Shown here: positions 10,831 to 15,338 of the stretch, piece after piece
How positions within the stretch are numbered: the first letter of the stretch is position 1
Layout of the letters: every line of letters starts with the position of its first letter
From: Actinomycetes bacterium
GTDB taxonomy: Bacteria > Actinomycetota > Actinomycetes > Mycobacteriales > Mycobacteriaceae
Direction: 5' to 3'
Assembly (NCBI GenBank): GCA_022600695.1
Contig: JAHZJY010000290.1
Coordinates: 1 to 15,410 of the forward strand
DNA length: 15,410 nucleotides
Program-made: the position numbers and the translations under genes
Notes under the pieces: model-generated
Told to the model about the DNA's origin: nothing
Seen by the model: the letters and a program-made list of their open reading frames with translations, nothing else
The model's database searches: none

Positions 10831-11898
10831 CTAGCCGACGCTGCCGATCAGCACATCCCACGGGTCCGCGCCGGACAGCGCCAGCCGGCCCAGTCGGCGC
10901 GCGTAATGGGCGGTGTCGCCGAACTCCCCGATCCAGCTCCGTGCCCGCATCGTGGCCAGCCACAGCCGGTGTTCGATCGTCACCCCGATGGCGCCGTGCA
11001 CCTGGTGGGCCGCGGTGACCACACCGGGCACCACCTGACCGAGGGTCACCTTGGCCACCGTCACCGCGAAGTCGGTCCGGGGGTCCGCGAAACCGAAGTC
11101 CGCTGCCGCCGCCACTGCGAGGTTGGCCGCGGCGCGGGCCCGTTCCACCTCACCGGCCATCGTCGCGAGGGTGTGCTGGACGGCCTGGAACGCACTGAGC
11201 GGACGGCCGAACTGCTCGCGCTCGCGGGTGTGCGCCACCGAGAACTCCACGGCGGCGTCGAGCGCACCGATGGTCTGCACGCAGCGCGCCCAGGCACCCC
11301 TGCGGATGAGTTCATCGCCGACATCGACGGCGGCGAACCCGTCGTAGCTCTCATCGACGGATACCCGGTCGCGGGGTTCCCCGCCGGCGTTTCGGCCGCG
11401 CGTGACGGATAACCGCGCAGGATCGGGGACCGCCACCATGAGCCGGTCGCCGTCGCGCAGGGCAAGCACGACCGCGGCGGCATCCGCGGCATAGGGAACG
11501 TCGTTCAGGTGCGCGACGATCCGCCCGCCGGATCTGCCGGCCGGGCCAATGGCGACGGTCAGCGGGCCGGCCTCCGGGATGTCGAGGCCTGTTGTGGCGG
11601 CCAGCCAGCAAGCCAGCAGATCGGTCTCGGCAACCGGAACCGTCACCGCGTGACGGGCCATCGAGCGCAAAATGACCGCGACTTCGATTGGACCGCCACC
11701 GGATTCGGTACCGCTGTCCAGCCGGGTGAGGCCGGCCTGTTCGAGGTGGTCCCAGGCGGCGCAGTCCAGGGGATCGGGCAGCGTCCGATATCCGATTCGG
11801 GCATCGAAGGACCTTGTGCCGATCTCATCGGCGAGACTGCGCAGATCAGTGAGATCGTCAGTGCCGCAACCGAAAACGCCGCCACCCAATACGCTCAT
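10831..11898 (-). CDS. Acyl-CoA dehydrogenase, probable partner (beta-type) subunit
   Basis: A 355-residue FadE-like protein. The C-terminal half is recognisably acyl-CoA dehydrogenase: REQFGRPL (227-234, FAD contact region) and HQVHGAIG (298-305), then a helical EHRLWLATMRAR segment. The N-terminal half is diverged and lacks the SEPxAGSD substrate/FAD motif present in its neighbour. This is what is seen in the non-catalytic partner of heteromeric (alpha2beta2) mycobacterial FadE enzymes such as the ChsE pairs, so the two adjacent FadE genes probably form one enzyme (inference). The start is ATG 11898, chosen because AAAGGA sits 5 bases upstream; a TTG start 8 codons earlier has no such signal. 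It follows the other fadE by 31 bases and ends the TetR-led gene group, 110 bases before asnO. Substrate unknown. Confidence 0.8.
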   Translation of the reverse strand: MSVLGGGVFGCGTDDLTDLRSLADEIGTRSFDARIGYRTLPDPLDCAAWDHLEQAGLTRLDSGTESGGGPIEVAVILRSMARHAVTVPVAETDLLACWLAATTGLDIPEAGPLTVAIGPAGRSGGRIVAHLNDVPYAADAAAVVLALRDGDRLMVAVPDPARLSVTRGRNAGGEPRDRVSVDESYDGFAAVDVGDELIRRGAWARCVQTIGALDAAVEFSVAHTREREQFGRPLSAFQAVQHTLATMAGEVERARAAANLAVAAAADFGFADPRTDFAVTVAKVTLGQVVPGVVTAAHQVHGAIGVTIEHRLWLATMRARSWIGEFGDTAHYARRLGRLALSGADPWDVLIGSVG

Positions 11899-11929: not shown

Positions 11930-13093
11930 TCACCGCAACCCCATTCCCCGGGCCACCATCCCGCGCAGCACCTCGTTGGTTCCGCCGCGCAGGGTGAACA
12001 GCGGCGCGTGTACCCGCCCCACCTCCAGTAGTACCGCCACCGCCTCCCGGCCCTCGGCGTCCGCGGCGGCGTAGGACAGCAGGTCCGCGGCGAGGTCCAC
12101 CGACTCCTGCTCGAAACGTGTCCCCAGGTCTTTGACCAGTGCTGCCTCGTTGACCGGGGACTGCCCGCCGGCCAGTGCGCGGGCCACCGACACCGACAGT
12201 TGACGCAGCGAAATCACCCGGGCGGCAAGCCCGCCCACCGCGGCCGCGGCGTGATCGTCGAGATCATCCTGATCGGCCAGCACTCGTATCAGCGCGGTGA
12301 GCAGTGGAACGGTGGTCAGGATTCGCTCCGGCCCACTGCGCTCGACGGACAATTCCGTGGTGACCTGACGCCAGCCGTCGCCCTCCGTCCCGAGCAGGTT
12401 GGCGTCGTCGACGAACACCTCATCGAAGCTGACCTCGTTGAAATGGTGCTCGCCGGACATCAGCACAATCGGACTGATCCCGACTCCGGGTGCGTCGGTC
12501 GGCACGATGAACTGGCTGAACCCGGCGTGCCGTCGCTCGGGATCCGGTGGGCGGGTCCGGGCCAGCACCACGATCTGGTGACACAGGTGGGCGCCACTCG
12601 TCCACACCTTGGTTCCGGACAGTAACCACCCGCCATCGGTGCGGGTGGCCCGCGCAGTGGCAGCCGCCAGGTCCGAGCCGGCCTGCGGCTCGCTCATTCC
12701 GATCGCCGAGAAGTACCGTCCGGCAGCAATTTTCGGCAGGATGCGGGTCCGTTGCTCCTCAGTGCCGTAGGACAGCAGACCCGGGCCAACTTGGCGATCG
12801 GCTATCCAGTGCGCGGCGACCGGCGCTCCGCATGCCAGTAGTTCCTCGGTCACCACATAGCGGTGCAGGTGGCCCAACCCCTGGCCGCCATACTCCTCGG
12901 GGATGGTCAGTCCGAGGAATCCGGCGTCACCGAGGCGGGCGCTGAACGGCTCGTCCCAGCTCGACAGCCAGGCGTCCACGCCGGGCCGCCAGCCGAACTC
13001 GGCGCGGTCGGCGATCAGGAACTCCCGCAGCGCGCCGCGTAGCCCAGCGAGTTCGGGTTCGTTGGCGCACAACGCAGCGAAGTCGTCAGCCAC
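11930..13093 (-). CDS. Acyl-CoA dehydrogenase, probable catalytic (alpha-type) subunit
   Basis: A 387-residue FadE protein of normal family length, which oxidises an acyl-CoA to the 2-enoyl-CoA with FAD. Seen in order: the N-terminal helical domain with the family segment LGLTIPEEYGGQGLG (60-74); the GMSEPQAGSD substrate/FAD motif (132-141); GTKVWTSGA (160-168); and a C-terminal LRGGTNEVLRGMVA segment (368-381). The C-terminal catalytic Glu of medium-chain dehydrogenases (in YEGT) is a Gly here. Instead, Glu251 in LSVERSG falls at the helix-G position used by isovaleryl-CoA dehydrogenase and by alpha subunits of heteromeric FadE enzymes. The protein can therefore be catalytic with the base at 251 (inference from alignment by eye). 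The start is GTG 13093, 17 bases after the thioesterase stop, with only a weak GGGGAT upstream. Substrate unknown. Confidence 0.87.
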   Translation of the reverse strand: MADDFAALCANEPELAGLRGALREFLIADRAEFGWRPGVDAWLSSWDEPFSARLGDAGFLGLTIPEEYGGQGLGHLHRYVVTEELLACGAPVAAHWIADRQVGPGLLSYGTEEQRTRILPKIAAGRYFSAIGMSEPQAGSDLAAATARATRTDGGWLLSGTKVWTSGAHLCHQIVVLARTRPPDPERRHAGFSQFIVPTDAPGVGISPIVLMSGEHHFNEVSFDEVFVDDANLLGTEGDGWRQVTTELSVERSGPERILTTVPLLTALIRVLADQDDLDDHAAAAVGGLAARVISLRQLSVSVARALAGGQSPVNEAALVKDLGTRFEQESVDLAADLLSYAAADAEGREAVAVLLEVGRVHAPLFTLRGGTNEVLRGMVARGMGLR

Positions 13094-14566: not shown

Positions 14567-14692
14567 TCACGCCGCGCCGGACGGCCGCAGTATCGCCCGC
14601 GGTGACAGCAGGCCCGGACCCAGTAGGTGGCGGCGCTTGTCGGCCCGGCGGTTGATCCGGATGCCGGCGATGTTCAATTCGACGATCCACAT
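14567..14692 (-). CDS. Small 41-residue ORF leading the TetR operon, unknown function
   Basis: An unrecognised small protein of 41 residues, starting MWIVELNIAGIRIN and basic in the middle (RRADKRRH). Three features support translation. A strong GGGAGG ribosome binding site lies 6 bases before the ATG at 14692, much better than those of its neighbours. Third codon positions are almost all G or C. The TGA stop is one base before the TetR GTG, a coupling arrangement. It begins with a short hydrophobic stretch (about 2-11), too short for a membrane helix. It may be a functional microprotein or simply a leader peptide that delivers ribosomes to the TetR start. The open frame extends upstream to 14788, but that part crosses the operator palindrome and has no ribosome signal. 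Confidence 0.55.
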   Translation of the reverse strand: MWIVELNIAGIRINRRADKRRHLLGPGLLSPRAILRPSGAA

Positions 14693-14731: not shown

Positions 14732-14751
14732 ACTATGGTTATAACCATAGT
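14732..14751. promoter_or_regulatory. Perfect 20-bp palindrome, likely TetR operator 1
   Basis: ACTATGGTTATAACCATAGT is a perfect inverted repeat in an AT-rich island of otherwise GC-rich DNA, 40 bases upstream of the small ORF start. On the minus strand TATGGT within it can serve as a -10, with TTTGCC 18 bases upstream as a possible -35. Repressor binding would then block the TetR operon itself. Its inner 16 bases share the TATGRT-N4-AYCATA layout with the repeat at 14829-14844. Binding by the adjacent TetR protein is inferred. Confidence 0.7.
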
Positions 14752-14828
14752 CGTGGGCCGTAACGGGGGCAAAGCGAACAGCACACAAGTGGGTTACACC
14801 TTGATGACGGGGTGAGACCGGCCACTTG

Positions 14829-14844
14829 TATGATCCTTATCATA
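14829..14844. promoter_or_regulatory. Second 16-bp palindrome, likely TetR operator 2 at the maoC promoter
   Basis: TATGATCCTTATCATA is an inverted repeat with 6-bp arms and a 4-base centre, ending 35 bases before the maoC start. It matches the core of the first palindrome at 11 of 16 positions with the same symmetry, centre to centre 95 bases. TATGAT may be the maoC -10 (possible -35 ATGACG at 14804-14809, spacer 19, weak). Occupancy would shut off maoC. Confidence 0.6.
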
Positions 14845-14879: not shown

Positions 14880-15338
14880 ATGCAGGTCATCACATCGGTC
14901 GACGACGCGCACGGTCTGGTCGGCCGGGAACTCGGGGTCAGCGACTGGTTTCGGATTGACCAACAGCGCATCAACGACTTCGCCGACGTCACCGGCGACC
15001 ACCAGTGGATTCACGTCGATGTCGAGCGCGCCAGGGCGCAGAGCCCGTACGGCACCCCGATCGCGCACGGATTCCTCACGCTGTCACTGATCCCGGCGCT
15101 GAGTAAGGACAACTTCCGTGTCGAGAACGCGAAACTGGCCATCAACTACGGCCTCAACAAGGTCCGCTTCCTGTCGGCCGTCCCCGTCGACAGCCGCATC
15201 CGGGTCCGCTCCGAGTTGGCCGATACCGCCAGGGTGGATGACACCACGGTCAACATGACCGTCAGGCACACCGTCGAGATCGACGGGGTGGACAAGCCGG
15301 CCGCCGTCGCCGAGATGATCGTCCGGGTGATCTTTTAA
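14880..15338 (+). CDS. MaoC-like (R)-specific enoyl-CoA hydratase, HtdZ/Rv0130-like
   Basis: A 152-residue single-hotdog hydratase 2 that adds water to trans-2-enoyl-CoA to give (R)-3-hydroxyacyl-CoA. The active-site segment GDHQWIH gives Asp40 and His45, the same spacing and numbering I recall for the catalytic pair of Mycobacterium tuberculosis Rv0130 (HtdZ). AHGFLTLSLIP (62-72) and the LAINYGLNKVRFLSAVPV segment (about 86-103) also follow Rv0130 closely. The protein is complete, with no signal peptide. A strong ribosome binding site and an operator-like palindrome lie directly upstream. It is divergent from the TetR/thioesterase/FadE group and is probably co-regulated with it, supplying the hydration step after FadE dehydrogenation (inference). 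Stereochemistry follows from the family, not from this sequence. Confidence 0.9.
   Translation: MQVITSVDDAHGLVGRELGVSDWFRIDQQRINDFADVTGDHQWIHVDVERARAQSPYGTPIAHGFLTLSLIPALSKDNFRVENAKLAINYGLNKVRFLSAVPVDSRIRVRSELADTARVDDTTVNMTVRHTVEIDGVDKPAAVAEMIVRVIF

Follow-up and report, generated by a model that had tools for sequence, protein, structure and literature searches.

In Tn10, TetR controls its own gene and its target through tetO1 and tetO2, twin operators that lie about 30 bp apart between the divergent genes. The mycobacterial locus analyzed here resembles that system in carrying a same-design pair of predicted operators between divergent genes, two such sites being found in 80 of 81 regions compared, and differs from it in spacing: the 81 loci span 73-143 bp, against roughly 30 bp for the tet operators. 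The closest solved relative of its regulator, by both sequence and fold, is QdoR (YxaF)/LmrA of Bacillus subtilis. QdoR represses its own gene through one operator downstream of the −10 element and represses qdoI through two operators (PMC8481877). Its ligand is the flavonoid quercetin and its targets are qdoI and qdoR, whereas the TetR considered here lies beside beta-oxidation genes.

Among mycobacterial regulators, MftR of Mycobacterium smegmatis is described as a TetR repressor that binds long-chain acyl-CoAs and recognizes a conserved palindromic operator; it differs from the present case in having one 27-bp operator with a GGCA-N5-TGCC core and in its targets (PMC8728441). More broadly, Balhana et al. 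(2015; PMC4482099) report eleven novel mycobacterial TetR motifs, obtained with MEME from divergent intergenic regions on the basis of conservation, together with a table of 30 regulators listed by M. tuberculosis gene. The TATG-N8-CATA motif described below may be the same as one of those eleven. In the open-licence literature we found no description of this TetR or of its motif. This type of switch is already known; the well-supported operator pair of a predicted TetR autorepressor is a new case of it, and control of a divergent fatty-acid gene by this TetR is probable.

The window, that is, the whole 15,410-nucleotide stretch of DNA analyzed, belongs to an incomplete mycobacterial genome (401 contigs, 2.82 Mb, 86% complete). 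What we report on the sites and how they are conserved, on the −35/−10 geometry at O1 and on gene order was read from sequence. The features relevant to the argument are the following.

10831..11898, minus strand: FadE (b), acyl-CoA dehydrogenase-like, 355 aa, with Pfam matches to the C-terminal domain only
11930..13093, minus strand: FadE (a), acyl-CoA dehydrogenase, 387 aa
13111..13953, minus strand: acyl-CoA thioesterase, hotdog fold, 280 aa
13963..14565, minus strand: TetR-family regulator, LmrA/YxaF-like, 200 aa, GTG start
14567..14692, minus strand: microprotein MWIVELN..., between O1 and tetR, 41 aa
14699..14704, minus strand: Shine-Dalgarno-like GGGAGG of the microprotein ORF (direct reading)
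14732-14751, no strand: O1, predicted operator site 1, ACTATGGTTATAACCATAGT, a perfect 20-bp palindrome
14744..14749, minus strand: predicted −10 element of the tetR promoter, TATGGT, inside O1
14767..14772, minus strand: predicted −35 element of the tetR promoter, TTGCCC, 17 bp from the −10
14793..14808, plus strand: GTTAC-N6-ATGAC, an 11-bp-period element between the operators, common to the window's clade
14829-14844, no strand: O2, predicted operator site 2, TATGATCCTTATCATA, TATGAT-N4-ATCATA, with perfect 6-bp arms around CCTT
14880..15338, plus strand: (R)-hydratase, MaoC-type, 152 aa

Domain analysis of the regulator revealed a TetR_N helix-turn-helix (PF00440, 36.7 bits, cut-off 24) and an LmrA/YxaF-like C-terminal domain (PF21993, 84 bits, cut-off 27). 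Its predicted structure comprises nine helices in the TetR fold (pLDDT 89.4), for which Foldseek ranked YxaF first (1sgm_A, TM 0.75, E 7.7e-7); by sequence, too, 1sgm was the closest solved structure (E 1e-18). The 26 orthologues and 8 paralogues examined share an almost unchanged recognition-helix segment, SGAPRGS-x-Y. For the MaoC hydratase, the nearest solved relative is Rv0130 (2c2i, E 7e-46).

The initial annotation had proposed twin palindromes of one design. Its positions were exact, as was the agreement of O1 and O2 in 11 of 16 core bases; their centers lie 95 bp apart by direct reading, and the support gathered here exceeds the original claim. At up to two mismatches, TATGRTNNNNAYCATA matched the window twice against 0.17 expected, and 4 of 200 shuffles reached two matches. 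The genome scan suggested alongside that claim was run, and over the whole genome (86% complete) O1 and O2 were the sole matches to TATGRTNNNNAYCATA at up to one mismatch, with none for a reversed-pattern control. The proposed architecture TATGRT-N4-AYCATA held, its RT and AY positions being slightly too narrow, in that position 5 of the half-site may be A, C or G.

Orthologues of the TetR (at least 55% identity) were present in 26 of 37 same-genus genomes, counting the window's own and with some of the 37 incomplete. Judging by synteny, M. tuberculosis is not known to carry an orthologue. We assembled a set of 81 loci, consisting of the window and the 80 best among 506 related stretches found by scanning named genomes. 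In a motif-free search, in which perfect 6-bp inverted repeats were counted over the 600 bp that precede the TetR gene, the commonest half-site and spacer classes over the 81 regions were ATTATG-N8 (24), TATGGT-N4 (18) and TATGAT-N4 (13). With a symmetric weight matrix, 80 of the 81 regions (the window and the best 80 of 506) held a pair of sites that each reached 14.8 bits, against one such site in 2 of 810 shuffled regions and two in none of the 810, a comparison that is partly circular since the matrix was trained on the scored regions; the motif-free search is not. The exception, L140, whose sites are listed at a lower cut-off than those of other loci, has a second site of only 8.0 bits.

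Both the TATG and CATA arms were exact in 79 of 81 first sites and 75 of 81 second sites. The informative matrix columns were TATG and CATA, then T at position 6 and the A/T flanks, with position 5 and the middle variable. A second set of 25 orthologous loci, which partly shares species with the first, yielded 23 loci with two sites and 2 with a single site at 8 bits or above (L043 and L046). The conservation check named beforehand, on orthologous intergenic regions, therefore came out in favor of the palindromes, with two strong sites in 80 of 81 loci. Judged by these comparisons, the TATG-N8-CATA motif is not due to chance; since both sites accompany this regulator in some 80 other mycobacterial genomes, they are very probably that TetR's own sites.

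The mycobacterial −10 consensus is TANNNT. The half of O1 that lies farther along reads TATG.T in the direction of tetR, and TTGC occurs at one fixed offset, 17 bp upstream of O1's −10, in 59 of 81 loci, so that O1 appears to overlap the −10 element of the tetR promoter. Beyond O1, the 81-locus set shows the consensus GGAGG. This position bears on the reading of the palindromes as RNA hairpins or terminators within transcripts, which their nature as intergenic inverted repeats might suggest. Because O1 contains the −10, it lies largely upstream of the predicted transcription start, and action as RNA is rejected by position; the A+T-rich arms and variable middle eight bases also speak against such structures, which leaves this reading scarcely credible.

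On the other side, O2 is centered 26-65 bp ahead of the first aligned codon of maoC across the 15 loci of the window's clade (44 bp in the window). No conserved −35 was found for the O2 side in the 81-locus set, so any position for the maoC promoter is a guess, although the first half-site of O2, TATGAT, could serve as its −10. The earlier placement of one palindrome over the tetR promoter thus stood, and the other does lie just upstream of maoC; adjacency to maoC proved clade-specific, and its promoter lacks a conserved −35. Linking the motif to the thioesterase and the FadE pair was likewise upheld by contiguity within the window's clade and failed outside it; in the sister clade both stand away from tetR.

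Taken with the conservation data, we regard it as highly probable that the LmrA/YxaF-type TetR represses itself and a divergent beta-oxidation gene through the paired operators O1 and O2. Here we infer binding, repression, ligand and co-transcription. One TetR dimer would occupy each TATG-N8-CATA site. A dimer on O1, positioned over the −10, would block RNA polymerase and thereby autorepress tetR together with the upstream microprotein, and a dimer on O2, immediately before the divergent beta-oxidation gene (maoC in the window), would block that promoter. A fatty acyl-CoA or related ligand, whether a product of the pathway or an input to it, would then release TetR and turn both sides on. The window's clade lacks the genes that separate tetR from thioesterase-fadE-fadE in relatives, so its TetR transcript probably extends through these three as well.

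Analysis of gene order revealed that the identity of the divergent gene varies. Gene labels (RibD, ALDH, EchA1) were assigned by BLAST to selected representatives, with family searches for the loci scanned. Within 2.5 kb beyond O2, the nearest recognized gene at the 81 loci was fadE5-like in 40, maoC in 16 and an enoyl-CoA hydratase gene in 9, a divergent reference gene thus being the nearest in 65 of 81; the remaining loci had an oppositely facing aldehyde dehydrogenase gene (13) or none recognized (3). The fadE5-like protein matched FadE5 structures at E 2e-278, and a FadE5-like gene (66% identical) is present elsewhere in the window's genome. The divergent gene therefore swaps among maoC, fadE5-like and enoyl-CoA hydratase genes, all of them for beta-oxidation steps, while the sites stay.

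The TetR phylogeny placed the window in a 15-row clade (support 98/92) in which maoC is first beyond O2 and a thioesterase or FadE gene is the nearest recognized gene after TetR. In its sister group of 18 rows (support 89/86, below the starred level), the fadE5-like gene comes first and maoC follows in 17, the exception being L092, whose contig ends too early; after TetR, a ribD-like gene is nearest in 13 of 18, and a thioesterase gene is nearest, though set apart, in 5. Given these intervening genes in the sister group, the window's arrangement was probably derived by gene loss, the direction of change being inferred. In many relatives, nat, AraC-type and RibD_C-domain genes adjoin tetR, a neighborhood resembling the nat-araC-reductase operon MSMEG_0306-0308 of M. 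smegmatis (PMC4266540). The two motifs reported there differ from ours in sequence and place: nat is preceded by a 20-bp palindrome, araC by a sequence of 23 bp (PMC4266540).

At eight loci belonging to two clades (L108, L120, L122, L128, L134, L137, L139 and L144), O2 is kept, at 17.6-28.7 bits, beside the reversed aldehyde dehydrogenase gene. The longer plus-strand ORFs beyond O2 at these loci reach 215 codons and run antisense through the aldehyde dehydrogenase gene; we judge them not credible. With no evident divergent gene at these eight loci, O2 may act on tetR too, and may have a role beyond blocking a divergent promoter. Two further, related loci with the aldehyde dehydrogenase gene, L133 and L136, do have a divergent ORF on the plus strand beyond O2; it encodes about 90 residues, and its start resembles a signal peptide.

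This persistence of O2 in two separate clades is what would be expected if both sites served mainly tetR autoregulation, through cooperation or looping, with the divergent gene a secondary target. The favored values of O1-O2 spacing (73-74, 85-86, 106, 117-118 and 129-135 bp) point the same way. The DNA between the sites is itself divergent, with 26 length values of 73-143 bp in the 81-locus set, and the 95 bp of the window corresponds to 9.05 turns, from which same-face binding or looping by helical phasing had been suggested. That suggestion was not sustained: we found no 10.5-bp phase lock among 31 distinct spacings (R 0.23, p 0.066), drawn from the 81-locus set and 23 added from the second locus set, some of the same genomes, or by 12 clusters (R 0.27, p about 0.42). 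The distinct values were more concentrated at a period of 11-11.5 bp (R 0.41-0.47), which does not correspond to the helical repeat of B-DNA. Together with the location of O2 26-65 bp before maoC in the window's clade, as promoter block predicts, the lack of a phase lock makes a mainly autoregulatory role unlikely, and repression of both tetR and the divergent gene remains our preferred reading.

We then considered how far the motif extends beyond this locus. Across 12 genomes the strict pattern matched 18 times on the forward pattern, and this intergenic region accounts for 16 of these, against 2 for the reversed control; one of the 12, G014, had none. In 22 genomes with the TetR, a looser pattern gave 59 forward matches against 45 for the reversed-pattern control; a manual tally by coordinates assigned 33 to this locus, 13 to the vicinity of paralogous TetR genes and 13 to other places. 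Eleven genomes that lack the orthologue yielded 13 forward matches against 14, and the same tally put 4 of the 13 next to paralogues. With a background as large as the control, the looser pattern does not discriminate by itself, as the strict one does. The window's own genome holds a third TATG-N8-CATA that fits the looser pattern only (G000:C328:4632-4651). No recurrent distant target appeared in the pattern scans of the 12, 11 and 22 genomes, nor any further site of at least 18 bits in the 10 regions, among 33 scanned, that hold thioesterase/FadE. The motif is thus local, and a wide TetR regulon did not emerge; a KstR-like multi-gene regulon was rejected on the same grounds, 16 of 18 strict matches in the 12 genomes, and both of those in the window's own genome, being local.

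Eight loci of paralogous TetR genes (L058-L065; 42-46% identity) were intended as a negative control. Seven of the eight carried TATG-N8-CATA at 17 bits or above, no more than about 45 bp ahead of where the aligned TetR begins, and the eighth, L061, had none within 600 bp; the motif therefore appears to belong to the TetR branch. Paralogous TetR genes (32-46% identity) with their own palindrome near the start were noted at L058-L060, L062-L065, G004, G009, G013, G031 and others. From this distribution, TATG-N8-CATA looks like an operator rule of the TetR branch, each member using its own locally, and one recognition rule may serve the whole branch.

The same data weigh on whether another regulator binds the palindromes, the TetR gene being a mere neighbor, a reading to which further conserved elements between O1 and O2 lend something. 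Because the motif tracks the TetR subfamily, through 80 of 81 orthologous regions and the paralogous TetR genes, and its strict form is otherwise rare, such a regulator is very improbable. The motif provides a testable operator sequence for a widespread mycobacterial regulator of a fatty-acid breakdown locus, and the orthologue set presents an operator pair that stays constant while target gene, spacing and neighbors vary.

The locus comparison also brought to light a conserved microprotein. Homologues of about 40-60 residues (MWxVELNxAG...) were present in 79 of 81 loci, none being found in L141 and L145 of that set. The residue directly before W is M or V in 71 of 78 non-window copies; the other 7 start further upstream. 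Over 14 codons, pN/pS was 0.45 in frame versus 0.86 and 1.47 in the other frames, and over 44 codons of 39 loci it was 0.64 versus 1.17 and 1.16; by this measure, the frame is under purifying selection. A database search with the L093 copy returned 38 relatives, hypothetical proteins where named, and the window's copy had no Pfam or NCBIfam match. It is conceivable, though quite doubtful, that the microprotein works together with the repressor, for instance as an anti-repressor, a co-repressor or an acyl-CoA sensor arm, with the operators forming one cooperative switch that evolves independently of the adjoining beta-oxidation gene. Such a partnership, if true, would account for the retention of O1, the microprotein, tetR and O2 as a unit even at loci where no divergent gene is evident.

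Between the operators, the MaoC clade carries an 11-bp-period, GTNAC-N6-GTGAC-like element, located between O1 and O2, which resembles PhoP, GlnR or OmpR-family boxes. The direct repeat looked conserved in that clade and was dropped as a generally conserved element, being weak over all loci (21 of 81 versus a shuffled mean of 7.1, with 15 on the opposite strand; in a stricter form, 7 of 81 versus a shuffled mean of 2.6 and maximum of 7). A further sequence, GTATTCC, occurs in 29 of 81 loci (e.g., L117) at a fixed offset from O1, 24 bases past the matrix end. It lies just upstream of the tetR −35 within a longer common stretch, TGTATTCCNCATCACA, and is perhaps an activator site.
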